Source of the DNA: an uncultured Bacteroidaceae bacterium
Lineage (GTDB): Bacteria; Bacteroidota; Bacteroidia; Bacteroidales; Bacteroidaceae
DNA: 45,948 nucleotides
Reading direction: 5' to 3'
Assembly (NCBI GenBank): GCA_905233285.1
Contig: CAJODY010000013.1
Span: forward strand, 1 to 45,948
Positions 15,389-31,333 of the stretch are shown one piece after another. The first letter of the stretch is position 1. Each line of letters begins with the position of its first letter. Both the position numbers and the translations under genes were made by a program. The notes beneath the pieces were generated by a model. That model had not been told where the DNA came from. It saw only the letters and a program-made list of their open reading frames with translations, and made no database searches.

Positions 15389-16266
15389 TTATACCAAGTG
15401 GCGGATGAGTTCCTCACGGTCGCCGCAAAGCATGTCGATGACAGGTATTTCTATCATTGTGTATGCTCCCGGCTGCTGCTTCAGGCTGGCACGTGCCACG
15501 TTGACGAGTACCTGAGCTGTGAGGGCTGGGTTGTTTATCTTCATGGAGTCTTGCCGCTGACACCCTTGCGAACGAGGTTCACTCCGTGACCAACGTCGTT
15601 GAGGTCGTCAACACAAGGAACCTGCTGTACGTGAGTCTCGTCGTTTACGAAGTAAGGGTCGGACTTGATGGCTGCCTCAACCTGCTTGAAGTCGGCTCCG
15701 TCCTCAAGTTCTACATATACCATGCGGCGATGGATGCCTGTGCCGACTGGGATAGTCATTGAGAGAGCATCGCGAACACCCTTGATGGAACGAACTGCTA
15801 CGGAGTGACCCATTGAGCGACCAGGACCGAAGTTGGTGTATGTCACGCCTTTGGGAGCAAGTCCTTCGATAAGCGAACGTACGATGGAATCGCTTCCCGG
15901 GTCCCATCCTGCCGAGATGACGCTTACGGCATTGTTTGCCTTTGCCACCTTATCGAGCGAACGGCGAAGGTCAACTATCTGAGTGTGGATGTCGAACGAA
16001 TCGACTGTGTTGATGCCGAGTGCGAGGCACTTCTTGGCATACTCTTCCACCTTACGGGTAGGGGTAGCGAGAATGGCTACCTGAACGCCTTTGAGTTCTG
16101 TGATTTCCTTTACTACGGGGATGTCAGCCAGTTCGGCTGGTTTGTTCTCTGCACCATTGCGGCGCACAACTCCTACGCACTCCATATCGGTTGATGCCTG
16201 AACGGCTTCGAGGGCGTATTTTCCGATGTTGCCATATCCTACGATGGCTACTTTGATTTTCTCCAT
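15389..16266 (-). pseudogene. ddh: meso-diaminopimelate dehydrogenase, frameshifted near the 3' end
   Basis: The main frame (16266 to 15541, 241 residues) carries a Rossmann start (KVAIVGYGNIGKYAL) and the Ddh signatures VDSFDIH, SAGWDPGSDS and NFGPGRSMGHS. It should make meso-DAP from tetrahydrodipicolinate with NADPH for lysine and peptidoglycan. It stops abruptly after RKGVSGKTP. The missing C-terminus is present directly downstream in another frame (15544 to 15389, 52 codons: [14 protein letters not shown] to ELIRHLV). From memory of the family, about 8 residues (SGKT[15 protein letters not shown]) are missing at the junction, so a deletion of about 22 nt would explain the shift. The two frames overlap as ATGA, so two coupled polypeptides are conceivable; an assembly error is also possible. 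Confidence 0.85.
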
Positions 16267-16303: not shown

Positions 16304-16336
16304 CAAAGGTAAACATTATCGAAGGAAAAATGGAAA
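16304..16336 (-). promoter_or_regulatory. Promoter of ddh
   Basis: On the minus strand TACCTTTG (16304-16311) is a full TAnnTTTG element. A one-mismatch -33 (TTTC, 16333-16336) lies 21 nt upstream. Confidence 0.6.
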
Positions 16337-16340
16337 GGAT

Positions 16341-16375
16341 TTTGCAGGAAAAATAAAATAAAAGTTGTACATTTG
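16341..16375 (+). promoter_or_regulatory. Promoter of the signalling gene cluster
   Basis: TTTG at 16341-16344 and TACATTTG at 16368-16375 are separated by 23 nt, slightly longer than usual. The -7 element overlaps a possible TTG start at 16373, which favours the ATG at 16397. Confidence 0.6.
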
Positions 16376-16396
16376 CCACATATTATAGAATACGAT

Positions 16397-17560
16397 ATGG
16401 CAGTAAAGATTTTGAGTGTTGACGACGAAGTGGATTTGGAGCTTCTGTTGACACAGTTTTTTCGCAGGAAAATACGTAAGGGAGAGTATGAATTCCTCTT
16501 TGCCCACAATGGTTTGGAGGCTTTGCAGATGTTGCTGAAGCATCCAGATATCGATATCATTCTTTCCGATATAAATATGCCTGAGATGGACGGACTGACT
16601 CTGTTGGCCAAAATCAACGAGATGCGGAATCCGGCCCAGAAGTGCATTATGGTAAGTGCCTACGGCGATATGGACAATATCCGCAGGGCAATGAACAACG
16701 GAGCGTTCGATTTCGCTACCAAGCCGATTGACCTTGAGGACCTGGAGCGCTCGATTGAGAATGCCATCCAGCAGATTGAGTTCGTTAAGGCTGCCCAGAA
16801 AGACAAGAAAGAGCTGAGGGATATTCAGACGGATTTGAGTGTGGCAAGAGAGATTCAGTTGGCTATCCTGCCTCGCAACTTCGACCTGAAGATGCCGAAT
16901 TCGGAGACTATCGACATCCATGCATCGATGAATGCGGCCAAGGATGTGGGTGGCGACTTCTACGACTTCTTCCGCATAGACGACGAGAGATTTGGCTTTA
17001 CGATTGCCGACGTATCGGGAAAGGGAGTGCCGGCTGCCATCTTTATGGCTGTGAGCCGTACACTTATCAAGGCAACGGGTCTGCGCGGTCTGTCGGCACA
17101 CGAGAGTCTGGAGATAGTTAATAATGTGTTGTGCGGCGAGAGTGTCGATTCGATGTTCGTAACGGTATTGTACGGAATTTTCAACATCAAGACAGGAGAG
17201 ATAAACTATTGCAACGCCGGACACAACGCACCATATATCCTCCACCAGAACGGAATGGTGGAAATGGTAGAGTCGTTCGTCAACATCGTGCTGGGAGCAT
17301 TTGAGGATATGAAGTTCAAGAGCAACTCGATGACCCTTGCCGAAGGTGATACTCTGGTGCTGTACACAGACGGAGTGACGGAGGCTGAGAACGTGGACCA
17401 TGAGTTGTTTGGCGACCCACGTCTGGAGAGTGTGCTCGGAGAACTGAAGGGTGCCGACAGCGGAACGATTGTAGATACCATCAATAAGAAAGTGAAGGAG
17501 TTTGCCGGCGACGCACCTCAAAGCGACGACGTGACTGTACTGGTGATAAGAAGAAAGTAA
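16397..17560 (+). CDS. Response regulator with SpoIIE/PP2C-type serine phosphatase output (RsbU-like)
   Basis: 387 residues from the ATG at 16397. Residues 1-120 form a receiver domain: acidic pair D9/D10, phosphoacceptor D58 in LSDINMPEMDG, switch serine in MVSAYGD, and lysine in FATKPID. A helical linker (about 125-165) leads into a PPM/SpoIIE phosphatase domain with the metal-binding motifs DVGGDFYDFF, IADVSGKGVPAAIFM and SDDVTVLVI. Such proteins dephosphorylate a serine on an anti-sigma-factor antagonist; no STAS or anti-sigma gene is in the window. It is the first gene of a compact cluster containing two kinase-like proteins, so the phosphoryl donor is probably local. Confidence 0.93.
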   Translation: MAVKILSVDDEVDLELLLTQFFRRKIRKGEYEFLFAHNGLEALQMLLKHPDIDIILSDINMPEMDGLTLLAKINEMRNPAQKCIMVSAYGDMDNIRRAMNNGAFDFATKPIDLEDLERSIENAIQQIEFVKAAQKDKKELRDIQTDLSVAREIQLAILPRNFDLKMPNSETIDIHASMNAAKDVGGDFYDFFRIDDERFGFTIADVSGKGVPAAIFMAVSRTLIKATGLRGLSAHESLEIVNNVLCGESVDSMFVTVLYGIFNIKTGEINYCNAGHNAPYILHQNGMVEMVESFVNIVLGAFEDMKFKSNSMTLAEGDTLVLYTDGVTEAENVDHELFGDPRLESVLGELKGADSGTIVDTINKKVKEFAGDAPQSDDVTVLVIRRK

Positions 17561-17564
17561 TACC

Positions 17565-19190
17565 GTGAAAGCTTCAAAGACAATCATTATCGCAGTTGTT
17601 GCAGCTATCGTAGTTGCAGCGGTGGGTTGGTTGGGCTACACCTTGGGACGTGAAGCCACACAACATGACCATAATGAATTGTTGGAAGAAGTGGAAAAGC
17701 TGAAGGCAGAGGAAAAGGATGCGGCTGTGACGAAGCGCGTGAGTCAGCAGATGGAGGCTATTGCCTACGAGCAGATGAACGTGTCGAACATACAGCGAGA
17801 CAGGGCTGAGGAGCAATCGCGTCTGGCGGAAGCCAATGCCGCAAGGGCTGAGGAGCAGTCGCGACTGGCACAGGCAAATGCAGAAAGAGCCCAGCAGCAG
17901 TCGTTGTTGGCAGAGAAGAACGAGCGGATAGCCCTCGCAGCAGCAAAGGAAGCCGAGGCACAACGTGATGCTGCAACCTATTCGAAGAGTATAAGCGATA
18001 CGCTGAGTTACCGTACGTTGAGCCGTTCGCTTGGTACTACTTCAATATCGCAGAACGAGAGCCGCAATCAGGAACTGGCTCAGATACTGGCTTATGCCAG
18101 CTGGTATTTCGTAGATAAATACAAAGGAAATCCTTATCAGAACGAGACGTTCCAAGCTCTGCTGGAAGCAACAAACTCCATCCGTACTTATACCACTCCG
18201 AACAAGGGAGCCGTGAATGCAGTTGCCGGACTGAAAGAAGGACGTGACGGCTGTGCGGCTGTGACTAATTACGGCGAGGTGGCTTTGGTGGAGAAGGGTA
18301 AGATGAGGATGCTGTTGCAAAATAACATATACGATTTCCGTGATGTGTGGCTGAACGAAAGAAATATCTATGCCCTTTCGTATAGCGGACAGCTCTGCAT
18401 CCTCGACTACAACAGGCTGATAGGAGTGGAAATGCTTCCTGCCGAGAAATACTTCAAACTGTTGGAACTCGATGCCAATACCCTGCTGATAGCATCCCGC
18501 CATTCTATTACATGGTTCGACCTGAAGACCATGAAGGCAGGTAAGACACTCAAATGCGAGAAGGAGTTGACGTCGCTCGTAAAGCGCAGAACCCAGATTT
18601 TCCTCTTCTATAATGACGGAACATGCGATGAAATGGACGGCGAGGGTAAGTTGACCAGTAAGAAGAGCCTCTCGTACGGAGTAGTGACATCGGCAATGTT
18701 CTCGGAAACGATGCGTGTGCTGTTCCTTGGCTTGAACAACGGCGACATCGTCATGCTGGACGACGGTGACAGGTATATGACAACCCTGAGCGGTCATGTG
18801 TCAAAGGTGACGGGTCTTGCCTACAGGGGTAAGGTGCTCATCTCTTCATCCTACGACAAGCATGTGTATATATGGAATCTTCCCAAACTGAAAGCAACCA
18901 TAAAAGACGGAACTCTGAAAAACGATATAGAGGAAGTCGAACACGGTACTCCGAGAGAATGGCTCGTGCCTGCTACATTTACAAACAACGCTTGGATGCT
19001 GTGTGTATGTACGAAGGCCGACTGGGCTTGGCTCGGACTGAGCGACGGCCGGATTATCAAATACTGCATATCCGTATCATACATGTCGGACCTGGCGCGC
19101 AAACAGATGAAGCGTAATCTGACGCACGACGAGTGGATGCAATATGTGGGCACAAATGTCAACTATATAGATTTGCTGAAGGGTGAGTAG
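17565..19190 (+). CDS. Membrane-anchored coiled-coil protein with WD40-like propeller
   Basis: 541 residues starting at GTG, 4 nt after the preceding stop. One N-terminal membrane segment (residues about 5-25, IIIAVVAAIVVAAVGWLGYT) is followed by a long coiled coil (about 30-140). Within it a 14-residue unit is repeated about three times (RAEEQSRLAEANA, RAEEQSRLAQANA, RAQQQSLLAEKNE). The C-terminal 350 residues are beta-rich, with WD40-like blades (HVSKVTGLAYRGKVLISSSYDKHVYIWNLP). Since the charged coil follows the helix, I infer that it faces either cytoplasm or periplasm as a scaffold for neighbouring signalling proteins; no enzyme motif is seen. Its position between phosphatase and sensor supports a signalling role. 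Confidence 0.7.
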   Translation: MKASKTIIIAVVAAIVVAAVGWLGYTLGREATQHDHNELLEEVEKLKAEEKDAAVTKRVSQQMEAIAYEQMNVSNIQRDRAEEQSRLAEANAARAEEQSRLAQANAERAQQQSLLAEKNERIALAAAKEAEAQRDAATYSKSISDTLSYRTLSRSLGTTSISQNESRNQELAQILAYASWYFVDKYKGNPYQNETFQALLEATNSIRTYTTPNKGAVNAVAGLKEGRDGCAAVTNYGEVALVEKGKMRMLLQNNIYDFRDVWLNERNIYALSYSGQLCILDYNRLIGVEMLPAEKYFKLLELDANTLLIASRHSITWFDLKTMKAGKTLKCEKELTSLVKRRTQIFLFYNDGTCDEMDGEGKLTSKKSLSYGVVTSAMFSETMRVLFLGLNNGDIVMLDDGDRYMTTLSGHVSKVTGLAYRGKVLISSSYDKHVYIWNLPKLKATIKDGTLKNDIEEVEHGTPREWLVPATFTNNAWMLCVCTKADWAWLGLSDGRIIKYCISVSYMSDLARKQMKRNLTHDEWMQYVGTNVNYIDLLKGE

Positions 19191-21852
19191 GGCGTTATAC
19201 ATATTGATTCTTTTCATGTCGAGCATAGGATGTTATGCCCGCTATCCGCTTGGTACTCCTTTCTTCAAGAACTATCCCTCGAAGGTATATGGTGCACACA
19301 ACAGAAACTTCGACATAATGTGCGACGACAGGGGATATGTGTTTGTTGCCAACTTCGAGGGTCTGCTCATATACGACTATATGGGGTGGAAGATTATGCA
19401 CACCCCGGGTATCTCACGAGTGACGGAACTGAGCCGCGATAAGGAAAACAGGGTGTGGTTCAGCGGAATAAACGTGAAGGGATGCATACAGGATATCCAG
19501 GGCGACAGTGTCAAGGTATTCTATACGCAGAGCGACAAGAATTCTACAGGGTATGTGACCATCCGAACCAAGGAATATAAGGAAGTTGACCGATGGAATG
19601 GCATAGAAGTGTATAAACGGTTGAAGATATCCGACAATCGGACTCTGTTGGCCACCGCTTCGGCAGGTGTGATAGCAATCGACGAGAATGAAAACGAGGT
19701 ATGGTCGGTAAACGAGGATAAGGGTCTGTGCTCCAACAGTATAAATATGATTGACTACGACGGCAAAGGTACTGTGTGGGGAGCTACCGACAACGGTATT
19801 TTCAGCATAGCGATTTCGGAGATTTATACCTATTTCGGACAAAACGAAGGACTGCACGGACAGGTGACTTGTATAGCCGAGGCCGAGGACAGACTGTTCG
19901 TAGGTACCCTGCAGGGTCTCTACTATATGAAAGGTGACAGGTTCGAAAAGCTGGACGAGATAAACCAAGCCTGTTGGCAACTTGCCGAAACCGAACAGAG
20001 AGCAGCCATTGCAGCGACTACCAACGGTGTGTTCACCTATGGTGTCAAGGTGTCGCAGAAATCGGACAAGATGTCGCTTTCGATACTTGTCGAAGACAAC
20101 AATTCATACCTCTCGGGCGAGTTGGACGGTATCTACCGCCGATGGTACGACGGCAGGTCGGAACTGGTTGATAGCATCACGAACGTCATCAAGATGCAGA
20201 AAGACGAACACGGTGGTGTGTGGGCATTGACCTTGGGCGGAGAGCATTACTACAAATCGGCAAGGAAGTCACATTTCATACGGCAGAAGAAGGGCATACT
20301 GTCGCAGTTGCTCGAATATACCGACGACAAGAACAAGCACTGGCATTGTAACGGCGACGGAACGGGACTGGTGATGGACGGAATGCCGGAAGAACTGGCA
20401 AAGTGGCTGCGGCCGTTCTCCAGATACAGCATACAGGCAATGTATGTGCATGACGGTATTGTATGGATTGGCGGAAGTTTCGGACTTGTCCGTTTCGATA
20501 TAGACCGCAGCCAGTATGAGAAACCGGTGATGCCACATGTCTATCTTCGCAACTACGTGATGTCAGACCGCTACCTCTATGCGGCAATGGCAAACGACAA
20601 ACAGGATGCCATCGGACAGACCATGTACAGTTTCCGGCTCCACGACAATGATGCGTGGTCGAGGTGGAGTACCGACCAAGACATAGAGCTGCACAACCTT
20701 GCCTACGGTTATTACCAGCTAACTGTCCGTTCCATCGACCCCTTCGGCAACATAGCCGTGAGCGAGGAAAAAGAATTCGTGATACGATTCCCGATATATA
20801 TGCGATGGTATGCTGTCATATTCTACTTCTTTGTTTTGGGCTTGACCATCGCAGCAATCTTCAAATACCGTACACGTGTACTACGCCAAAGACAGGAAGC
20901 ACTGGAACGGGTGGTGAGCGAACGCACTCAGGAGGTAGTAAAGCAGAAGAATGAGATTGAGATACAGAAAAATGAGATAGAACACCAGAAGAACGAGATA
21001 GAAGAGAAGTCGAACAGGTTGGAAACCACTCTGACCGAATTGCGTGAAACGCAGAACGAACTGGTGAGGAAAGAGAAGGAGGCTACTGTCGGTAAACTGA
21101 CCCAGGGACTCATCGACCGCATCCTCAACCCAATGAACTACATCAACAACTTCTCCCATCTTACCCTGGGACTGACGAAGGACTTGAGACAAGACCTTGA
21201 CGACGAGGCTTCCAACATGAATGCCGACACATACGAAGACTGCGTCGATGTGCTCGACATGATGACTACAAACCTTGAAAAGATAGAGCAACACGGACTT
21301 TCCACCACACGCATCCTGAAAGCTATGGAGGAGATGATGCGAGAGCGTACAGACAAAGTGGAACCAATGGACGTAGCTATGCTGTGCGACCAAGCCATAG
21401 AAATAATCCGAAAATATTACGCTGCAGAAATAAAGACATACAAAATATCGGTGGAATGGAAGAAACCCGAATTGCCGATAGTTGCCGACGTAAACCCGGA
21501 GCTGATGACCAGAGTAGTGGTGTCGATGCTTTACAACAGCGTATATGCCGTGCAGAAAAAAGCAGACAAACTGCAATCGAAGGACGAACCATACGAACCA
21601 ATCATTCGTCTTACGGTAATTCCCGAGTCGGGCGAAGAACCCCCGTTCATTGAGTTATACGACAACGGAACAGGAATCGAAGAAGGAATTATCGAAAAGA
21701 TATTCGACCCATTCTTCACTACTAAGCCTACGTCGGAGGCTCCTGGAGTCGGACTCTATATCAGCCAGCAGATAATCCAGGACTTTGGCGGAAGCATAAC
21801 CGTAGAATCAGAAAAGAACAGTTACACTAAATTCATAATTTCATTACCATGA
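19183..21852 (+). CDS. Membrane sensor with propeller, Y_Y_Y and kinase-type ATPase domains; H-box lacks histidine
   Basis: 889 residues from a GTG overlapping the previous stop by 8 nt; this start gives a complete signal peptide (ALYILILFMSSIGCYA). Residues 20-440 contain regulator-propeller repeats (GKGTVWGATDNGIFSI), then a Y_Y_Y domain (about 480-540, ending ITVRSIDPFGN-like), a membrane helix (about 543-563) and a coiled coil (KNEIEIQKNEIEHQKNEIEE). The dimerisation region reads ATVGKLTQGLIDRILNPMNYI: the phosphoacceptor position is D645 and the next glutamate is R646. The ATPase domain looks complete (DNGTGI, FDPFFTTK, GVGLYIS). This layout resembles the sensor half of Bacteroides hybrid two-component systems but has no receiver or AraC domain. 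It may act as a pseudokinase partner of the next protein. Confidence 0.88.
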   Translation: MSRALYILILFMSSIGCYARYPLGTPFFKNYPSKVYGAHNRNFDIMCDDRGYVFVANFEGLLIYDYMGWKIMHTPGISRVTELSRDKENRVWFSGINVKGCIQDIQGDSVKVFYTQSDKNSTGYVTIRTKEYKEVDRWNGIEVYKRLKISDNRTLLATASAGVIAIDENENEVWSVNEDKGLCSNSINMIDYDGKGTVWGATDNGIFSIAISEIYTYFGQNEGLHGQVTCIAEAEDRLFVGTLQGLYYMKGDRFEKLDEINQACWQLAETEQRAAIAATTNGVFTYGVKVSQKSDKMSLSILVEDNNSYLSGELDGIYRRWYDGRSELVDSITNVIKMQKDEHGGVWALTLGGEHYYKSARKSHFIRQKKGILSQLLEYTDDKNKHWHCNGDGTGLVMDGMPEELAKWLRPFSRYSIQAMYVHDGIVWIGGSFGLVRFDIDRSQYEKPVMPHVYLRNYVMSDRYLYAAMANDKQDAIGQTMYSFRLHDNDAWSRWSTDQDIELHNLAYGYYQLTVRSIDPFGNIAVSEEKEFVIRFPIYMRWYAVIFYFFVLGLTIAAIFKYRTRVLRQRQEALERVVSERTQEVVKQKNEIEIQKNEIEHQKNEIEEKSNRLETTLTELRETQNELVRKEKEATVGKLTQGLIDRILNPMNYINNFSHLTLGLTKDLRQDLDDEASNMNADTYEDCVDVLDMMTTNLEKIEQHGLSTTRILKAMEEMMRERTDKVEPMDVAMLCDQAIEIIRKYYAAEIKTYKISVEWKKPELPIVADVNPELMTRVVVSMLYNSVYAVQKKADKLQSKDEPYEPIIRLTVIPESGEEPPFIELYDNGTGIEEGIIEKIFDPFFTTKPTSEAPGVGLYISQQIIQDFGGSITVESEKNSYTKFIISLP

Positions 21853-22688
21853 CAACCGAGGAGCAAAAACAGATAGCGCTTCTGCAAGAGCAGTTGCACA
21901 CGCAGGAGAAGATGGCCTCGCTGGGAATACTGAGTGCAGGCATAGCGCACGAAATCCAGAATCCGCTGAACTTTGTCATCAACTTCAGCAAGATGTCGTC
22001 GAAACTCCTTGACGACCTGATGGATATTGTTGAAGAGTGTAAAGACAAATTGGGTGATGACGATGCCGATGAAATCGGGGATATTTCTGCCGACCTGAAA
22101 GAGAACCTGGAAAAAATACAGGAGCATGGCGAACGCGCCATAAGCATTATACGTGGCATCCTGCTGCAAAGTCGGGGAAAGGAAGGCGAATTCCTGCCTA
22201 CCGACATCTGTCATTTGGTTCATGAGTATGTGTGGCTGTCATACCACGCCATGAGGGCAAACCATAAGGGTTTCAACATCAGCATCCATGAGGACTATCC
22301 CGAGGCGATGCAGAAGATAATGGTCATACCGCAGGACTTGAGCCGAGCCGTTCTCAACGTCATGAACAACGCTTGCTATACTGTAAAGGAACGTTCAGAG
22401 AATGCCGATGCCGACTACACTCCCACCATATCCATAAAGATTGAGGACGGGACGGATGATTTTTCCATTATCATTAGTGACAACGGAATGGGAATGTCGG
22501 AGGAAGTGCGCAACCAACTATTCGACACTTTCTTTACGACCAAACCCGTTGGTCAGGGTACAGGATTGGGTATGTCGATAACAAATGACATCATCACAAA
22601 GAACCATAAGGGAAAGATACTGGTGGACACAGCTCCTGGCGAGGGTTCCACATTCACTTTCATCATCCCTAAAAACCATAAGCAATGA
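21849..22688 (+). CDS. Soluble histidine kinase
   Basis: 279 residues, starting in an ATGA overlap with the sensor gene. It has no membrane segment or sensory domain: a short helical start leads straight to a canonical H-box (MASLGILSAGIAHEIQNPLNF, H34), then the ATPase motifs NVMNNACYTV, DNGMGM, FDTFFTTK and GTGLGMSI. It closely parallels the C-terminal part of the upstream sensor, which lacks the histidine, so the two probably form a heterodimer or arose by duplication. The likely receiver is the N-terminal domain of the phosphatase at 16397. Confidence 0.93.
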   Translation: MTTEEQKQIALLQEQLHTQEKMASLGILSAGIAHEIQNPLNFVINFSKMSSKLLDDLMDIVEECKDKLGDDDADEIGDISADLKENLEKIQEHGERAISIIRGILLQSRGKEGEFLPTDICHLVHEYVWLSYHAMRANHKGFNISIHEDYPEAMQKIMVIPQDLSRAVLNVMNNACYTVKERSENADADYTPTISIKIEDGTDDFSIIISDNGMGMSEEVRNQLFDTFFTTKPVGQGTGLGMSITNDIITKNHKGKILVDTAPGEGSTFTFIIPKNHKQ

Positions 22689-25030
22689 AGCGTGCTCTCT
22701 TCTACATATTGATAATGATGAGCGTCTCGGCGAAAGGACAGGAGATTCTTTCGCAGGCACAGGCCGTGTTCGATATGGGACGCTTTGAGCAACTGGACAC
22801 ACTCCTGCTTAACAATATGGACGTAATCAAAGGCGAAGGGCAGATTACGGCTTACCGGCTGTTGGCTTTGAGCAGTCTTTATCAAGACCGTCCGGCAGAT
22901 GCTGAACTGTACGCTGGAAAACTGTTGGCTCTCGACCCATACTATACGGCATATGGCGAGTCTCCGCGATTTGTGGATATTCTGGAGCGCCTGAAAAAAG
23001 GCAAGACGGTCGTTACAACGGCGTCGAGGGTAGAGGAAACACCAGAAGAGGTGCCTGTGCCTGTGACCCTGATTACGGAGGAGATGATACAGGCATCGGG
23101 AGCACGTTCGCTCAGCGAGTTGCTGTTGCTTTACGTACCAGGTATGTCTGCCATCGGAAGCGTCGAAGACAACATGGCTATGCGTGGAGTATATGGTCTG
23201 ACACAGGAGCATATGCTCGTCATGCTTAACGGTCATCGTCTGAACAGTTTCAGTACAAACGCCGAGGCATTTGACTTCCGGCAGAATCTTGAAAAGATTA
23301 AACAGATAGAAGTGCTTCGCGGTCCGGCCTCCTCGCTTTATGGAAATGTGGCTTTGACAGCCGTTGTAAACATCATCACCAAGTCTGGCTCTGAGGTTGA
23401 AGGTCTGTCGCTTACAGGCAAGGCAGGACTGAACAATACCTACGGAGGTACACTGCTCTTCGGTGAAGGAAATCTGAGGAGCGACGTGCTTGCATGGGCA
23501 TCGCTTTACACCTCTAGGGGTGAGAAACGGTGGGAAAATAACACGCAGCGTTACATAGGCGGCTACAATAATAAGCCGTCGTACGATTTGGGTATGAACG
23601 TGAGATGGGGTGATTTTACGATTGCAGCGATAGGTCAGCATTCAAAGACTGTGCCTTACTACAACCTGATAGACTTTGACAATTACTTCACCTACGACAA
23701 GTACGACTCGCAGGAGGGTGAGAAACCAGGAATATCGCGTATGCACGTGGGAGCCAACCTTGACTATACCCATACTTTCGGCAATCTGACCATTTCGGCA
23801 TCGGCATTTGCAACGAGCGAAAGGGTGCAGATATACAACGTTCTGGGTGATACGGTAAACCCCTATGTAGCCGCAGCCCTTCTTTTCCTGTTTGATGTTG
23901 AGAGTACGATGCAGCCCCATACCGTCGGTGTGTGGCAAAGTGTACACTGGGAGGACTACAGCATTGGAGGTATGCTGAATGCAACTTATAAGTACAGGCT
24001 CTCAGAGAATATGTATGGCTCGCTGTTGGGGGGCATCCAGTATGACTACTTCAAACTGTCGGATGCGTCGTTGAACCTAGGTCACGACTTCGACAAAGTG
24101 CATCTGACCACCAATACGATATTCACACGTGGCGACGAACAGACTGCGTCGGCATTCGTTCAGTTGAAACATAACTTCACGAAGCGTCTCATCTTCAACG
24201 GAGGTGTGAGATTCGACCATAAACAAAGGAACGACCACCGTATTATAAACACTGTCTCGCCTCGTGCAGCACTCATCTACATACCTAACAGCACGTTCAG
24301 CATTAAAGGAACATATGCCCATTCGTTCGTAGATGCTCCGTTCCTCTATCGCACAGCAGAGATTTCCATATTCACCGGTTCAGAGAATATGGACCCTGAA
24401 CACATGGATGCCTTCCAGGTAAGTGCCACACTCAACCTGAAACCCATCAACACGAAATGTGAGTTGAATGTGTTCTATACCGATGTCCGTGACTTGGTAT
24501 TCTATACCAGCAACGACATTAATGCCCATAATTTGTTTGAAAATGCCGGAAATATAAGTATGGGTGGAGTGGAAGGTGTTATCCAATACAATACTCCGAA
24601 GACCCTTCTGAATCTCAACATGACATATCAATACCCATTCAAGGTGGAGAACTTTTCATCTCCATCTCACAAGGTATGTAACATTTCAAATTTCCTCCTC
24701 AATCTCGTTGGCTCACAGCGGTTGTTCTCTAACCCTCGGCTCGGCTCATTTTGGGTGCGTGCCAACATGCATTTCCAGTCGGCTATGAAGTGTCTCGACA
24801 ATGACATGAAGAAGACATCAACCGACCCAAACATAAGCTACATAGCTGTTGACCAGTCGGCGGTGGCTATCTTTGGTGCAGGACTGGAATGGAAACTACC
24901 GTTCCGTCTGACGGCTGCATTCGATACGTACAATCTGTTCAACACTCATTATAAGATAGGCGGACGCCTGCAGCAGGGCAATCCAGCGCAGGGATTCAGT
25001 TTCCTGGGTCGCCTGACATACGATTTTTAA
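22685..25030 (+). CDS. TonB-dependent outer membrane receptor with N-terminal TPR-like extension
   Basis: 781 residues; start in an ATGA overlap with the kinase gene. A signal peptide (FYILIMMSVSAKGQ) is followed by about 90 helical residues of TPR-like character (ALSSLYQDRPADAELYAGKLLALDP) and then a TonB-box-like stretch (TVVTTASRVEETPEEVPVPV). A plug domain follows (ITEEMIQASGARSLSELLLLYVPGM; VLRGPASSLYGNVALTAVVNIITK), then a 22-strand-type barrel ending FSFLGRLTYDF. It is of the FepA/BtuB/colicin-receptor type rather than SusC, and no SusD follows. The extension before the TonB box is unusual and could be a periplasmic contact site for the sensor encoded just upstream. Confidence 0.9.
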   Translation: MKRALFYILIMMSVSAKGQEILSQAQAVFDMGRFEQLDTLLLNNMDVIKGEGQITAYRLLALSSLYQDRPADAELYAGKLLALDPYYTAYGESPRFVDILERLKKGKTVVTTASRVEETPEEVPVPVTLITEEMIQASGARSLSELLLLYVPGMSAIGSVEDNMAMRGVYGLTQEHMLVMLNGHRLNSFSTNAEAFDFRQNLEKIKQIEVLRGPASSLYGNVALTAVVNIITKSGSEVEGLSLTGKAGLNNTYGGTLLFGEGNLRSDVLAWASLYTSRGEKRWENNTQRYIGGYNNKPSYDLGMNVRWGDFTIAAIGQHSKTVPYYNLIDFDNYFTYDKYDSQEGEKPGISRMHVGANLDYTHTFGNLTISASAFATSERVQIYNVLGDTVNPYVAAALLFLFDVESTMQPHTVGVWQSVHWEDYSIGGMLNATYKYRLSENMYGSLLGGIQYDYFKLSDASLNLGHDFDKVHLTTNTIFTRGDEQTASAFVQLKHNFTKRLIFNGGVRFDHKQRNDHRIINTVSPRAALIYIPNSTFSIKGTYAHSFVDAPFLYRTAEISIFTGSENMDPEHMDAFQVSATLNLKPINTKCELNVFYTDVRDLVFYTSNDINAHNLFENAGNISMGGVEGVIQYNTPKTLLNLNMTYQYPFKVENFSSPSHKVCNISNFLLNLVGSQRLFSNPRLGSFWVRANMHFQSAMKCLDNDMKKTSTDPNISYIAVDQSAVAIFGAGLEWKLPFRLTAAFDTYNLFNTHYKIGGRLQQGNPAQGFSFLGRLTYDF

Positions 25031-25048
25031 CGACACATTATATATATT

Positions 25049-27097
25049 ATGTTTGACATAAAGATTATGGCATTGACAGTAATGATGACAGGCTGTGCGA
25101 TGAGCGCAGCAGCCGAGAATGACTTCAAGTATGCTGACGAGCGCTTTGCAGACCTGCAGATGCTGAGGTACAAGGTTCCGGGATTCGAAAATCTGAGCCT
25201 GAAGCAGAAGACATTTATATACTACCTGCAGGAGGCAGCCCTGTGGGGACGTGATATACTGTGGGACCAGAACTGCCGTTACAATCTGCGTGTGCGCCGT
25301 GTGCTAGAAGAGGTGTACAAGCAGGAGATGCGTTTCCGTACGGGCAACGAAAGTGACAGGGAAGAGTTTCAGGCTTTTGAGACATACCTGAAACGCGTTT
25401 GGTTCAGCAACGGCATACACCATCATTATGGCTGTGATAAGTTCCAACCAGATTTTCCCTCTGCATGGTTCCGACGTTGTGTTCAGAAACACGCTTCGTC
25501 GTTCAACGACGTGCAGGGAGGACTCGAACCCCTGCTCAACGATGTATGTGAAGCTATCTTCAATCCCAACATACTTCAGAAACGTATAAATCTGGCAGAG
25601 GGTGTGGACCTGATAAAGACTTCCGCCTCCAATTATTATTCTGGTGTCACACAGGCAGAGGCAGAAGCATTCTACGAGAAACAGAAAGCAGAAGGCGATG
25701 CACTCCATCCTGTGATGTATGGCATGAACTCACGTCTGGTGAAAGACTCTAAGGGACGTATCTACGAAAAGAAATGGACCATCAACGGACTCTATGGCAG
25801 TGCGATAAAGCATATCGTCGATAATCTGCTGCTAGCACGCGAATATGCTGAAGACCAGAAGCAGAAAGAAGTGATAGACCTGCTCGTTTCCTATTATCGT
25901 ACAGGCGACTTGAAAACCTTCGACGACTACAGCATTGCATGGGCAGGGAATACAGAACCATTGATTGATTTTGTAAACGGTTTCATCGAGTGTTATGGCG
26001 ACCCTCTCGGTCTGAAATGTTCGTGGGAAAGTCTTGTAAACTTCAAAGACCTCGTTGCTACGAAACGTACGGAAACCCTGAGTAAGAATGCACAGTGGTT
26101 TGAAGACCATAGTCCTGTTGATGCCGCGTTTAAGAAAGACAAAGTGAAAGGCGTGAGCGCAAAGGTTATCAATGCAGCCCTGTTGGCAGGCGACCTCTAT
26201 CCATCCACAGCAATAGGCATCAATCTGCCCAACTCCAACTGGATACGTCGCGAATACGGTTCTAAGTCCGTAACCATCGGCAATATAACCGATGCATATA
26301 ATCAGGCTGCTAAAGGCAATGGAATGAGGGAAGAATTCGTGCTTTCCGACTCTGACAAGGAACTGCTCGAGAAGTATGCCGACGTGTGCGACGAACTGCA
26401 TACCGACCTTCACGAGTGCCTAGGACACGGTTCCGGAAAACTGCTCGACGGAGTAGATCCTGACTCCTTGAAAGCTTATGGCAGTACGATTGAAGAGGCT
26501 CGTGCCGATTTGTTTGCCCTTTATTACCTGCCTGATGCCAAACTGGTGGAACTGGGACTCACCCCTAATGCCGACGCATACAAAGCTAGTTACTATGCTC
26601 AGATGCAGAATGGTCTGATGACGCAGCTAGTACGCATTCAGCCAGGCAAGAACCTTGAAGAGGCGCATATGCGCAACCGCGCCCTTATAGCTCATTGGGC
26701 ATTCGAACATGGAAAAGCAGAAAACGTATGTGAATTCGTAAAGGTGAATGGTAAGACCTTTCTGCGCATAAATGATTATGAGAAACTCCGTGTTCTGTTC
26801 GGCAAACTGCTCGCAGAAATTCAGCGAATAAAGTCAACAGGCGACTATCAGGGTGCGCAGGCTTTAGTTGAGCAGTATGGTGTAAAAGTTGACCCCGAAC
26901 TGCACAAGGAAGTGCTGGAACGCTATGCAAAACTGAACATCGCACCTTACAAAGGATTTATCAATCCGAAATATACGGCAGTTAAAGATAAGTCAGGGAA
27001 GATTGTTGATGTAAAGGTGTCATATGACGAAGGCTATGCAGAGCAGATGATGCGTTATTCAACCATGTATTCAGCCTTGTCACTTGTAAATGAATAA
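25049..27097 (+). CDS. Dipeptidyl peptidase III family metallopeptidase (M49), predicted exported lipoprotein
   Basis: 682 residues. The zinc motif HECLGH (residues 455-460; family form HExxxH) and the downstream EEARAD (482-487) that provides the second-zone glutamate are diagnostic of M49. The enzyme removes dipeptides from the N-termini of short peptides. The N-terminus (MALTVMMTGCAMSAAAE) looks like a lipoprotein signal with C16, whereas DPP III is classically cytosolic; Bacteroidota members are known to be exported in some cases. It starts 18 bp after the TonB receptor gene, which suggests that imported peptides are trimmed in the periplasm. Confidence 0.92.
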   Translation: MFDIKIMALTVMMTGCAMSAAAENDFKYADERFADLQMLRYKVPGFENLSLKQKTFIYYLQEAALWGRDILWDQNCRYNLRVRRVLEEVYKQEMRFRTGNESDREEFQAFETYLKRVWFSNGIHHHYGCDKFQPDFPSAWFRRCVQKHASSFNDVQGGLEPLLNDVCEAIFNPNILQKRINLAEGVDLIKTSASNYYSGVTQAEAEAFYEKQKAEGDALHPVMYGMNSRLVKDSKGRIYEKKWTINGLYGSAIKHIVDNLLLAREYAEDQKQKEVIDLLVSYYRTGDLKTFDDYSIAWAGNTEPLIDFVNGFIECYGDPLGLKCSWESLVNFKDLVATKRTETLSKNAQWFEDHSPVDAAFKKDKVKGVSAKVINAALLAGDLYPSTAIGINLPNSNWIRREYGSKSVTIGNITDAYNQAAKGNGMREEFVLSDSDKELLEKYADVCDELHTDLHECLGHGSGKLLDGVDPDSLKAYGSTIEEARADLFALYYLPDAKLVELGLTPNADAYKASYYAQMQNGLMTQLVRIQPGKNLEEAHMRNRALIAHWAFEHGKAENVCEFVKVNGKTFLRINDYEKLRVLFGKLLAEIQRIKSTGDYQGAQALVEQYGVKVDPELHKEVLERYAKLNIAPYKGFINPKYTAVKDKSGKIVDVKVSYDEGYAEQMMRYSTMYSALSLVNE

Positions 27098-28281: not shown

Positions 28282-29556
28282 ATGAAAGTTGATGTACTCT
28301 TAGGTCTCCAGTGGGGAGATGAAGGAAAAGGAAAAGTCGTGGATGTTCTCACTCCACGCTATGATGTGGTAGCACGTTTTCAGGGTGGTCCCAATGCTGG
28401 ACACACACTGGAATTTGAAGGACAGAAATATGTCCTCCGTTCTATCCCTTCAGGCATATTCCAGGGCGAGAAAGTAAATATCATAGGAAATGGTGTGGTT
28501 TTGGCTCCTGACCTTTTCATGGACGAAGCAAAAGATCTTGAAAAGAGCGGTCACGAATTGAAGAGTCGGCTTCATATATCCAAGAAGGCACATCTAATCA
28601 TGCCTACTCATCGTCTGCTTGATGCAGCTAACGAGGCTGCAAAAGGTGACAAGAAAGTAGGTACTACAGGTAAGGGTATAGGTCCTACATACACAGATAA
28701 GACTAGCCGTAACGGTCTGCGTGTAGGTGATATTCTTTCAAACTTTGAAGAGAAATATGCAGCTCATAAGGCTCGCCACGAAGAAATGCTTCGTGCACTT
28801 AACTATACAGATTATGATATCACCGAGGTAGAGAAGAAGTGGATGGAAGGTATTGAATACCTGAAGCAGTTCTCACTCGTTGACAGCGAACATGAAATCA
28901 ACAAACTGCTCAAGGCCGGAAAGAGTGTACTATGTGAGGGTGCTCAGGGCACGATGCTCGATGTCGATTTCGGTTCTTACCCTTTCGTTACCTCTTCAAA
29001 TACGATCTGCGCCGGAGCATGTACAGGACTTGGTATCGGACCAAATAAAATCGGCGATGTATTCGGTATTATCAAGGCTTATTGTACTCGTGTAGGTGCA
29101 GGTCCGTTCCCTACAGAACTTTTCGACGAGACTGGCGCTACAATTCGTGCTATTGGCCATGAATACGGAGCTGTTACAGGTCGCGAACGCCGTTGTGGAT
29201 GGATTGACCTCGTTGCCCTGCGTTATGCTATTATGGTTAGCGGAGTTACAAAACTCATTATGATGAAGAGCGATGTACTCGATGGATTCGATACTATCAA
29301 GGCTTGTACAGCATATAAACTTAACGATGGAACCGTAACTCGTGACTTCCCATATGATATCAGCGACGGTCTGGTAGAACCGGTATATGAAGAGATGCCA
29401 GGATGGAAGACAGATTTGACGAAGATTACAAGCGAGTCGCAGTTCCCGAAGGCATTCAGCGATTATATCGCATTCCTTGAGAAAGAGCTTGAAACTCCTA
29501 TCACTATCGTAAGTGTGGGTCCTGATCGCGAGCAGACTATCGAACGTAAGAAATAA
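28282..29556 (+). CDS. purA: Adenylosuccinate synthetase
   Basis: 424 residues, the usual length. It catalyses GTP-dependent addition of aspartate to IMP, the first committed step to AMP. The N-terminus VLLGLQWGDEGKGKVVD is the GTP-binding signature containing the catalytic aspartate, and the second signature GTTGKGIGPTYTDK contains the catalytic lysine region. Both are intact, as is the TGRERRCGWIDL segment. Its 3' end overlaps the only AUG-like start available upstream of the following peptidase frame. Confidence 0.98.
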   Translation: MKVDVLLGLQWGDEGKGKVVDVLTPRYDVVARFQGGPNAGHTLEFEGQKYVLRSIPSGIFQGEKVNIIGNGVVLAPDLFMDEAKDLEKSGHELKSRLHISKKAHLIMPTHRLLDAANEAAKGDKKVGTTGKGIGPTYTDKTSRNGLRVGDILSNFEEKYAAHKARHEEMLRALNYTDYDITEVEKKWMEGIEYLKQFSLVDSEHEINKLLKAGKSVLCEGAQGTMLDVDFGSYPFVTSSNTICAGACTGLGIGPNKIGDVFGIIKAYCTRVGAGPFPTELFDETGATIRAIGHEYGAVTGRERRCGWIDLVALRYAIMVSGVTKLIMMKSDVLDGFDTIKACTAYKLNDGTVTRDFPYDISDGLVEPVYEEMPGWKTDLTKITSESQFPKAFSDYIAFLEKELETPITIVSVGPDREQTIERKK

Positions 29557-31333
29557 AAGTACAAGTCATATTTATCCGAAAAGGTTTTATCTGATTCTCG
29601 GGCTGTTTATAGGTGTGATATATGCCTATGCAGATTCCCGTACTTTGAGCGATGCAATGCGTATCGCAAAGGCTTTTGTTCAGCAGTCGGAAGAATTTGC
29701 TGCTGATGACGTAGAGGTGGAATTCGTCGTTGCCGATACTGATGGAAGAAAACTGACGAAAAGCCTTAAGGACGGCAACAATTCCGATTATTTCATCCTT
29801 AACCTTTCCGATGATGGCGGTTACGTCATCGTCAGTGGTGATGACCGTTTCAGAGATGTTTTGGGCTATAGCAACGAGGGCAGTTTTAGTTTCGATACCA
29901 TGCCTGACGGTCTGGCTTATATGCTGTCTGCCTACAGCAGGGAGATGGATGCAGCCAAGGGATATTGGGAAACTAACGACTCGGAGGATTCTCCATTACT
30001 ACTTGCATCTGCCTATCCAAGTGTTCCACCTTTGGTGAAAACTCATTGGCATCAGGCTTATCCGTTCAATGCTCAGGTTCCGATACCTTATTCGGGAAGC
30101 TACTCCACGCATCATGGCAAGGCAAGCGTAGGTTGTGTAGCTCTGGCTATGGCACAGGTGATGAACTACTGGAAATACCCGTCCGAGGGCAGTGGTGGAA
30201 TTTATCACAATCAATGTTATGATGATATAGCCGTGAATTTCGACGAGCAAACATATGATTGGAACAATGTGGCAGATGAATATGGCTTCTATATGGATGA
30301 TGACGGAATGGTGAAGAATGCTACTTATACGCAGACTCAAGCTGATGAGGTGGCGAAGTTATGTTATCATCTTGGAGTGGCTGTAGATATGGCGTGGAAT
30401 ATTAATGGTACCGGTGGTTCCGGAGCATATGAAGATGGCATAGTCAGGGCACTTGCCGTTAATTTTGGTTACAATTCTTACGCAAAACTAGTGTATCGCA
30501 ATGTGGAAGGAGTGGAGAAATTCAGTGATATGATAGCAAGAGATATCGTAGATGGACGTCCTGTGATATTTTCGGCTAACAGCGATGCAGGCGGTGGGCA
30601 CTCATTCATTATGGATGGTTACGATAGCTCTGCCTGCCTGTTTCATGTCAATTGGGGATGGCAGGGAGCCGATAACGGCTATTATGCCATATCTGTTCTC
30701 CAACCTTCGAATATGGGTAATTTCATCGAGGATCAGTCGGCCATACTCGGATTGCAACCCACGGAAGAGGATTTCGGTTACGACCCGACGGTCTTCTTCC
30801 AGCAGGCAACATTGAGGGCAACATCTGTACAGAAAGGAAACAATACCGCTGTTGATATGCCCTATCTGTATTGTCACGATGCTACATTGCCGAGCCCTAT
30901 TCAGATAGGATTTGTTGTCTGCGATAATAATGGAGTTCCTGTTGCCGACAGTTTTTTGGGCTCTTTGTCGCCAGTCCTTAATTATATTGAATTAACCATA
31001 CCGACGCCAGTTTTTCCAAAGTCGATGACAGCTGGTACATACACCATGAGAGTGTCTATGAAGGATGCCGATGGGAAGGTCTATCCAGTCCATGCTTACT
31101 ATGGTAATGTAGAAAGTTGGACGATTACCGTGTCGTCCAGTGCGCCCGGTGGAACCGTCTCTTTTGTTCCTATTGACCCGATAGTAACATCTGTTGATAA
31201 TCTGCTTACGGATGACGGCTTACGGTTTACCGGCTCTGATTCTGATACGTGGTACACATTGACGGGCATACCGGTATCTGTCCCTCAGAAAGGAATGTAT
31301 ATCCGTGGTGGAAAGAAATATCTTTTCCGCTAA
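29513..31333 (+). CDS. C10 family cysteine peptidase (streptopain/interpain type) with T9SS-like tail; start uncertain
   Basis: 606 residues if translation starts at the GTG inside purA. An inhibitory Spi-type propeptide (DYFILNLSDDGGYVIVSGDDR) precedes the peptidase domain, with the catalytic cysteine C208 in VGCVALAMAQVMNYW and histidine H363 in GGGHSFIMDGYD, followed by HVNWGW with the oxyanion tryptophan. The final 30 residues (WYTLTGIPVSVPQKGMYIRGGKKYLFR) resemble a type IX sorting tail. The signal peptide (RFYLILGLFIGVIYAYA) starts about 20 residues into the frame, but no ATG, and no GTG or TTG, lies between purA's stop and it. Start options are the GTG at 29513 (44-nt overlap), a rare ATT/CTG codon, or a frameshift. 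It is probably a secreted protein-degrading enzyme related to interpain A of Prevotella intermedia. Confidence 0.88.
   Translation: MWVLIASRLSNVRNKSTSHIYPKRFYLILGLFIGVIYAYADSRTLSDAMRIAKAFVQQSEEFAADDVEVEFVVADTDGRKLTKSLKDGNNSDYFILNLSDDGGYVIVSGDDRFRDVLGYSNEGSFSFDTMPDGLAYMLSAYSREMDAAKGYWETNDSEDSPLLLASAYPSVPPLVKTHWHQAYPFNAQVPIPYSGSYSTHHGKASVGCVALAMAQVMNYWKYPSEGSGGIYHNQCYDDIAVNFDEQTYDWNNVADEYGFYMDDDGMVKNATYTQTQADEVAKLCYHLGVAVDMAWNINGTGGSGAYEDGIVRALAVNFGYNSYAKLVYRNVEGVEKFSDMIARDIVDGRPVIFSANSDAGGGHSFIMDGYDSSACLFHVNWGWQGADNGYYAISVLQPSNMGNFIEDQSAILGLQPTEEDFGYDPTVFFQQATLRATSVQKGNNTAVDMPYLYCHDATLPSPIQIGFVVCDNNGVPVADSFLGSLSPVLNYIELTIPTPVFPKSMTAGTYTMRVSMKDADGKVYPVHAYYGNVESWTITVSSSAPGGTVSFVPIDPIVTSVDNLLTDDGLRFTGSDSDTWYTLTGIPVSVPQKGMYIRGGKKYLFR

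Follow-up and report, generated by a model that had tools for sequence, protein, structure and literature searches.

In the genome of an uncultured Bacteroidaceae bacterium (assembly GCA_905233285.1), five consecutive genes appear to encode a partner switch that is gated by a two-component pathway. They lie on contig CAJODY010000013.1, of which positions 1 to 45,948 were analysed; this whole stretch of 45,948 nucleotides (nt) is called the window, and it is contig C13 of a 2.55 Mb genome (G000) that is about 90% complete. In order of transcription the genes are named A to E: a receiver-phosphatase (A), a protein with a WD40-type propeller (B), a kinase-like sensor (C), a soluble histidine kinase (D) and a TonB-dependent receptor (E). 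Judged from sequence, the kinase, the receiver-PP2C phosphatase and the STAS and RsbW partners are known parts, and the receptor, the WD40 protein and the split kinase pair appear to be new ones. On balance it is probable that together they form a line across the envelope, from E to a STAS/RsbW switch. In such a line a ligand would be captured by E and reported, through the periplasmic helical domain of E, to B and C at the inner membrane. B would be a long coiled-coil rod carrying a WD40 propeller, probably in the periplasm, and C a periplasmic propeller sensor which, having no phospho-acceptor histidine, would pair with D or steer it. D would phosphorylate the receiver of A, altering the activity of its SpoIIE/PP2C domain on a phosphorylated STAS protein, and the dephosphorylated STAS protein would bind an RsbW-like kinase. 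The likeliest such partners in G000 are STAS1 and RsbW, with or without STAS2, on contig C46. Gene order, residues, motif position and partner genes can be read from the DNA; from them we infer the protein contacts, the direction of regulation, the ligand and the final target.

All five genes are on the plus strand, with a gap of 4 nt between A and B and overlaps of 8 nt (B/C), 4 nt (C/D) and 4 nt (D/E), so that the compact run described in the initial annotation is confirmed (Table 1). With Pfam matches taken at E<=0.01, A contains Response_reg and SpoIIE, C contains Reg_prop and HATPase_c and lacks HisKA, D contains HisKA and HATPase_c, and E contains Plug and the TonB barrel. The SpoIIE, kinase and TonB families of the initial annotation are recovered in this way; its WD40 call for B is seen only in matches that are every one below their cut-off (PF00400, 25.7 versus 27 bits), and the Y_Y_Y domain it had given to C is missing from the window copy, being present in the Bacteroides fragilis copy. 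No DNA-binding domain was found in A to E by the same Pfam search, in agreement with the initial annotation. NCBIfam names for the five proteins (RssB, AtoS, EspC and others, among at most 25 listed per protein) were all below their cut-offs and were not used for naming. The residues expected of a working A are conserved: receiver Asp58 is present in 58 of 59 aligned rows, the other row having a gap, and five PPM phosphatase Asp columns are kept in 59 of 59. It is worth noting that start codons are uncertain for B and C in several loci, and that the mechanical open reading frame (ORF) of A begins at a TTG at 16373. Antisense ORFs over the operon, such as 16316-17587 on the minus strand, which recurs in 9 loci, are taken as a by-product of the conserved coding of A.

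Table 1. Features of the operon in the window (positions are those of the window)
Feature	Position	Strand	Basis
-7 element match TACATTTG, fits TAnnTTTG, ends 21 nt before the A start codon	16368-16375	+	
A: receiver (residues 5-120) and SpoIIE/PP2C phosphatase (195-387), 387 aa	16397-17560	+	ORF, Pfam
B: transmembrane helix, long helix and WD40-type propeller, 541 aa, GTG start	17565-19190	+	ORF, Pfam, structure model
C: signal-like N-terminus, Reg_prop propeller, transmembrane helix near 542-560, coiled coil, degenerate DHp, intact HATPase, 889 aa, GTG start	19183-21852	+	
C codons Asp645-Arg646, at the H-box His-Glu position	21115-21120	+	alignment
D: soluble histidine kinase, 279 aa, His34 present	21849-22688	+	ORF, Pfam
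E: TonB-dependent receptor, 781 aa, barrel clade 1, no adjoining NRPS-like gene	22685-25030	+	
E N-terminal domain, about residues 20-106, all-helical, TPR-like, ahead of a TonB-box-like stretch	22742-23002	+	structure model

The order of the genes is strongly conserved. Strong matches to B come from 12 of the 37 genomes of the genus, counting that of the window, and weak ones, with a best E of 4e-7, from 4 of 24 genomes of other families. In all 11 relatives found with B the order A-B-C-D-E is intact on one strand; of these 11, just the 3 closest share the complete set of genes that flank the operon in the window. A scan of contigs with the C alignment gave 69 loci, from which L103-L106 were dropped as distant kinases or weak matches lacking the other genes; the remaining 65 member loci, which include the same places as the 11 relatives, are a lower bound, since the scan catches copies of C that have one of two peptide patterns. 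A-B-C-D-E stand in order on one strand in 53 of the 65, a count that the relatedness of the genomes inflates. These 53 include loci with a second E (L044, L079), a second A-like match (L083), an E fragment on the opposite strand (L078) or an A-like piece at the locus end (L052), as well as loci where a contig end cuts E (L046, L060) or where A is cut at the locus start (L070). Eight further loci are cut by contig ends (L055, L059, L084, L089, L092, L094, L099, L102), and four deviate from the order. Two of the four, L061 and L064, are weighed below. L087 is rearranged, with D and A divergent from C-B-E, and L101 is an operon that is broken or misassembled: C is truncated with a frame change, A and B were not found, and in their place, upstream of C, minus-strand ORFs that look recombinase-like by eye occupy L101:1741-6885. 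Most member records are rumen or gut metagenome-assembled genomes (MAGs) by title, one being the complete chromosome of Bacteroides fragilis Q1F2 (L081); the nearest named relative by C is the uncultured Bacteroidales MAG RUG11924 (L038). The initial annotation had proposed co-occurrence of the five families across relatives as a check on the operon and scattering of the genes as the result that would speak against it, and it is conservation that was seen.

The position of a promoter motif also points to a single transcription unit. Of 58 loci, 35 have TAnnTTTG, which we take to be the -7 promoter consensus of Bacteroidales, in the 80 nt that precede A, where base shuffling predicts 3.8; the other 23 lack it there. 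Before the remaining genes it occurs at chance level (B 1/60, C 2/63, D 0/62, E 0/58). The enrichment before A only supports a single promoter at that place, and with it the reading of A to E as one transcript. Scans for sigma-70-type promoters and for terminators were uninformative, with 16 matches versus a shuffled mean of 17.6 and 7 versus 9.0, both below chance.

The initial annotation had spoken of two kinase-like proteins, and this holds for D, which has the phospho-acceptor histidine in 62 of 62 rows at the His34 column and by this residue should be the working kinase; C lacks it in every readable copy. Of the 66 aligned rows of C, 65 carry Asp where the histidine is expected and Arg in place of the Glu that follows, and the remaining row has a gap; the H-box stretch that reads IAHEIQNPLNF in D is LIDRILNPMNY in C. 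The same 65 rows keep the ATP-binding boxes, namely N785 in the N box, D827, G829 and G831 in G1, and G855 and G857 in G2. Two other kinases of G000 keep the H-box histidine. By its residues C is thus a putative pseudokinase, with the phospho-acceptor replaced and the ATP-binding boxes retained, and the Asp at the phospho-acceptor position rules out the usual autophosphorylation. Even copies of C that share only 34-37% identity with that of the window have the stretch GLIDRILNPxNYINNF almost unchanged; one of the scan patterns, NYINNFSH, favours copies with the right half of this stretch, and it lies just past the changed residues, not on them. D and the kinase domain of C share 28% identity, which suggests that the two arose by duplication and divided the labour, the sensor staying with C and the phospho-acceptor with D. 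A C-like fragment beside a 52% relative of A (L118) has stops and frame changes that make its H-box unreadable, and it was left out.

For the two envelope proteins, structure models are the main source of information. The model of B (mean predicted local distance difference test score, pLDDT, 85.7, from 56 sequences) has a 102-residue helix at 64-165 followed by a propeller at 206-501, with seven or eight blades by strand count, and its Foldseek matches include WD40 and designed propellers. A helix of 102 residues is about 15 nm long, the same order as the periplasm. Charge bias favours an orientation with the N-terminus in and the C-terminus out in 27 of the 33 copies with a clear transmembrane helix, and B is probably oriented in this way, with the remainder in the periplasm. 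In E, the N-terminal domain is modelled as helices only (mean pLDDT 84.1); TPR proteins make up the majority of the Foldseek matches listed, none of them below E 0.05, and Pfam has no match to the domain, hence none to STN. The stretch that follows it is TonB-box-like, by its resemblance to the box of BtuB. When the copies of E are divided into two clades, median identity to the window copy is 45% for the N-domain, 66% for the plug and 30.5% for the barrel in 28 rows assigned by hand to clade 2 once the tree was made, and 51%, 71% and 41.5% in the 29 other rows. E is therefore more conserved inside and variable outside, which would fit one signalling partner and several ligands; such a gradient is frequent in receptors.

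The initial annotation had inferred a serine-phosphorylation partner switch and had proposed a search of the rest of the genome for STAS and anti-sigma proteins. Stand-alone STAS genes occur on C6, C46 (two) and C48, all four with the SSG motif, and RsbW domains on C46, where the gene stands alone, and on C48. C3 has a further STAS domain, within a frame of 565 aa that is putatively SulP-like by its size. On C46, positions 4012-5002 of L023 encode STAS1-RsbW-STAS2 with the candidate serine present, its position being our reading by eye against the RsbV/SpoIIAA motifs. STAS and RsbW genes stand in cis in 7 of the 65 member loci, within the flanks examined. In L081 (B. fragilis), L089 and L091 they are found between A and B, giving A-STAS-RsbW-B-C-D, with E where the contig extends that far; L086 has STAS-A-B-C-D-E-RsbW; L080 and L090 have both genes after E, separated by an opposite-strand permease gene; and L083 has a SpoIIE-RsbW fusion and a STAS gene ahead of A. 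The cis STAS proteins of L086, L080 and L090 are 63%, 58% and 58% identical to C46 STAS1, versus 36, 44 and 46% to the C48 STAS. In another family, G048 (L117) has a 59% relative of A between an ordinary Cache-HAMP-GAF sensor kinase and an RsbW gene, with STAS one gene further, which is probably the unsplit form of the system. Within the genus, orthologues of A (>=72%) occur in exactly the 12 genomes with B, and a stand-alone RsbW (frame <=215 aa, E <=1e-20) is found in all 12 operon-bearing genomes versus 2 of the 25 operon-free ones (G022, G034). In G034 (L119:3117-9762) the genes are STAS1-RsbW-[Cache-HAMP-SpoIIE]-permease beside a divergent STAS2-permease pair; what stands where the operon is missing is a different predicted phosphatase. 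A stand-alone RsbW (frame <=240 aa) is also present in 29 of another 48 genomes that bear the operon.

Transporters are found close to these switch genes. After STAS2 on C46 come a CitMHS/TrkA_C permease and an Asp-Al_Ex permease, in an order kept in 5 relatives (G001, G004, G008, G015, G028), and by position a transporter there could be an output of the switch. The two TrkA_C permeases of the C46 cluster (L023:4012-8528) have a counterpart in L080 and L090, where the permease between STAS and RsbW is of the family of the first. The lone STAS gene on C6 (L025:5501-5797) begins 13 nt after a gene that is alanyl-tRNA-synthetase-like by eye.

Several observations weigh against a line that runs from E to the C46 switch. 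The STAS and RsbW genes are unlinked to the operon in G000, where a second SpoIIE with its own fused RsbW and a STAS gene lies on C48, so that the partner switch gains from the cis loci and the co-occurrence in the genus while the pairing of A with C46 still rests on homology and co-occurrence. The Fisher p of 5e-8 for that co-occurrence overstates it, as it is uncorrected for kinship and completeness in genomes that are related and incomplete (55-99%). The stand-alone RsbW proteins of G014 and G005 are slightly nearer the C48 fused domain (50 and 49%) than the C46 RsbW (48 and 46%), and the stretch examined around the stand-alone RsbW of G005, G023 and G025 contains no STAS gene; orthology of RsbW in those genomes is uncertain, and this ambiguity has lowered our confidence in the line a little. 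Among the 48 further genomes, 17 have RsbW only in larger frames (328-740 aa), many of them SpoIIE-fusion-sized, a 607-aa frame of G075 gives a single weak match, and G098 has none. L061 has no E beside the operon, and in L064 E is inverted on the other side, at a contig end. The transmembrane helix of B (residues 6-26) and the location that depends on it come from a low-confidence prediction: residues 1-80 of the model have block means of 48-66, and 29 of 62 copies have no clear transmembrane helix at the chosen start. Finally, a single Sigma70_r3 match in the genome makes a sigma-B-type target unlikely. Some of these points would fit a phosphorelay from C through D to A in which the substrate of A is the STAS of C48 or of C6, or a protein of another kind, and C46 is linked to the operon by shared inheritance only. 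The choice of four SSG-bearing STAS proteins in G000, the genomes with fusion-sized RsbW, the fusion ahead of A in L083 and the RsbW proteins nearer the C48 type would all be expected under it. We nevertheless hold this to be rather unlikely, since the cis STAS proteins of L086, L080 and L090 fit C46 STAS1 best and stand-alone RsbW tracks the operon within the genus.

The part played by E can also be questioned. Receptor and signalling genes could be co-transcribed for ordinary uptake, with E importing only, C sensing free ligand in the periplasm and no contact between E, B and C. Reg_prop propellers occur in the hybrid two-component sensors of polysaccharide loci, the plug and barrel of E are normal, and a SusC/D-like pair and peptidase genes are located close to the operon in the window. 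On the other side, E has a conserved extra helical N-domain where transducer receptors carry their signalling domain, the N-domain and plug of clade 2 are nearer the window copy than its barrel is (the plug being commonly the most conserved part anyway), and no response-regulator or AraC output is fused to or found within the operon. Uptake alone is a serious alternative, if an improbable one. It is far harder to believe that C is a decayed, non-functional kinase: the phospho-acceptor has indeed gone from all readable copies, but the near-invariance of the changed stretch, and the retention of all three ATP-binding boxes (N, G1, G2) by each of the 65 readable rows, are signs of selection, not decay. 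Signalling from E through the C/D pair to the STAS/RsbW switch is thus the reading that we prefer.

A gene that follows E in some relatives may give access to a ligand. In 23 clustered loci this gene resembles a nonribosomal peptide synthetase (NRPS). Its product has about 810-1040 aa, the longest copy being cut by a contig end, and the L032 copy has Pfam matches to AMP-binding, PP-binding and, weakly, a thioesterase. In a tree of 61 E rows this NRPS-like gene tracks one receptor clade, being present for 25 of 29 clade-2 rows versus 3 of 32 clade-1 rows, although the deepest split of the tree is weakly supported (63). The 25 are 22 from the cluster, L050, where a contig end cuts the gene, and L069 and L091, found with tblastn. 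Of the clade-2 rows without it, L046 and L064 are at contig ends, and L078 and L093 have none in the flank examined. The 3 clade-1 rows are the second E of L044 and of L079, each located after the enzyme, and L087, with a distant enzyme. The full-length enzyme was found in 5 operon-bearing genomes among 61, always on the contig that bears the operon; the frames of the other matches at 1e-40 measured 502 or 1318-4598 aa, and G000 gave no match. The tree assigns the window operon to the receptor type that lacks the enzyme. The gene directly follows the clade-2 receptor in, for example, L042:15801-18368, L032:14346-16862 and L081:16236-18665, and in L032 and its named twin L044 a clade-2 receptor, the enzyme and a clade-1 receptor stand in series, as they do in L037/L079. 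Substrates of the adenylation domain were read by eye against pocket positions of gramicidin synthetase, with readings that varied between copies and no result. It is conceivable, if doubtful, that clade-2 operons form a self-listening circuit, in which the small product of the NRPS-like enzyme is released, recaptured by E and reported via the rod of B and the C/D pair to the partner switch. This would be a Gram-negative, TonB-gated, quorum-like route, and clade 1, which includes the window and has no enzyme, may eavesdrop on the molecules of its neighbours. Clade-2 operons with the gene offer a direct route to finding a ligand.

The surroundings of the operon in the window differ from most relatives. 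An M49 (dipeptidyl-peptidase III type) metallopeptidase at 25049-27097 begins 18 nt past E. It was rejected as an operon member together with a DNA-alkylation-repair-type protein, a Fur family protein and purA, because the position after E is kept only in the window and 3 close relatives. A Peptidase C10 gene with an Inhibitor_I69 (Spi) domain, which in the window (29513-31333) overlaps the end of purA, holds the same position in 3 close relatives. Upstream, a diaminopimelate-dehydrogenase-like ORF (15541-16266, minus strand) has 241 aa versus 299 aa in the L086 copy; its C-terminal part is absent in frame, through a frameshift, an assembly error or decay.

The initial annotation had put the operon forward as a candidate for an undescribed system. 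No description of the five genes together was found among the matches listed in open-licence PMC literature (titles and starts of abstracts), and in this sense the wiring stands as new; its kinase, receiver-PP2C, STAS and RsbW modules are those of RsbKY and RsfSR. If the proposed line is true, an outer-membrane entry point would be added to partner switching, on which little was found for Bacteroidales in the literature searched, and A, D, C46 STAS1 and RsbW are named as partners that can be tested. Related parts are found in other known systems. The hybrid two-component systems of Bacteroides polysaccharide loci join a Reg_prop/Y_Y_Y periplasmic sensor to a kinase, much as C does, but C ends with HATPase_c and has no fused receiver, AraC-type output or phospho-acceptor histidine. 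TonB-dependent transducers that work with FecR and an extracytoplasmic function (ECF) sigma factor likewise have an additional periplasmic domain at the N-terminus and a connection to signalling genes; the domain of E differs in being helical and TPR-like with no STN match, and Pfam gave no FecR or ECF match in A to E. A receptor and a pseudokinase are reportedly not part of the SypE-SypA system of Vibrio fischeri. There a STAS protein with an unknown target has its phosphorylation governed by serine kinase and phosphatase activities, which resembles the present case except that both activities are in one protein, SypE; SypA indicates that partner switches can have a target other than a sigma factor (PMC8256260). 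The rsbRSTX modules of Bacteroidetes, mentioned in a paper on the Vibrio stressosome, are a different module (PMC9237108).

The closest parallels are systems where a sensor kinase acts on a receiver phosphatase. In Bacillus cereus the sensor kinase RsbK phosphorylates RsbY, a receiver phosphatase for RsbV/RsbW that is thereby turned on (PMC9912610); RsbK is an intact hybrid-type kinase, the output is sigma-B, and the host is Gram-positive, hence without an outer-membrane receptor. In Mycobacterium smegmatis the histidine kinase RsfS acts with the receiver-PP2C phosphatase RsfR, which dephosphorylates an anti-sigma antagonist; SigF is the target, and here phosphorylation turns the phosphatase down; there is one intact sensor kinase in place of the C/D pair, and no TonB receptor or WD40 protein is described in the excerpt (PMC10950880). 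With opposite signs in RsbY and RsfR, the direction for A is not predictable. The window's genome has the His-bearing kinase (D), the receiver-PP2C protein with metal-binding Asp (A) and STAS plus RsbW that are typical of such systems; with one Sigma70_r3 match in a genome about 90% complete, it shows no sign of their sigma-B/F-type target. For C the parallel is DivL, a kinase-like protein of Caulobacter without the histidine that acts on the pathway of a true kinase, CckA (PMC4211667). C shows the same combination of a replaced H-box histidine and retained ATP-binding boxes. DivL has Tyr (Ala in one species) where C has Asp, and reads a phosphorylated regulator where C has its own periplasmic sensor (PMC4211667). 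The two are likened by their working and not by kinship. If the reading holds, C and D would be a natural pair of a transmembrane pseudokinase and a separate soluble kinase that share one job.

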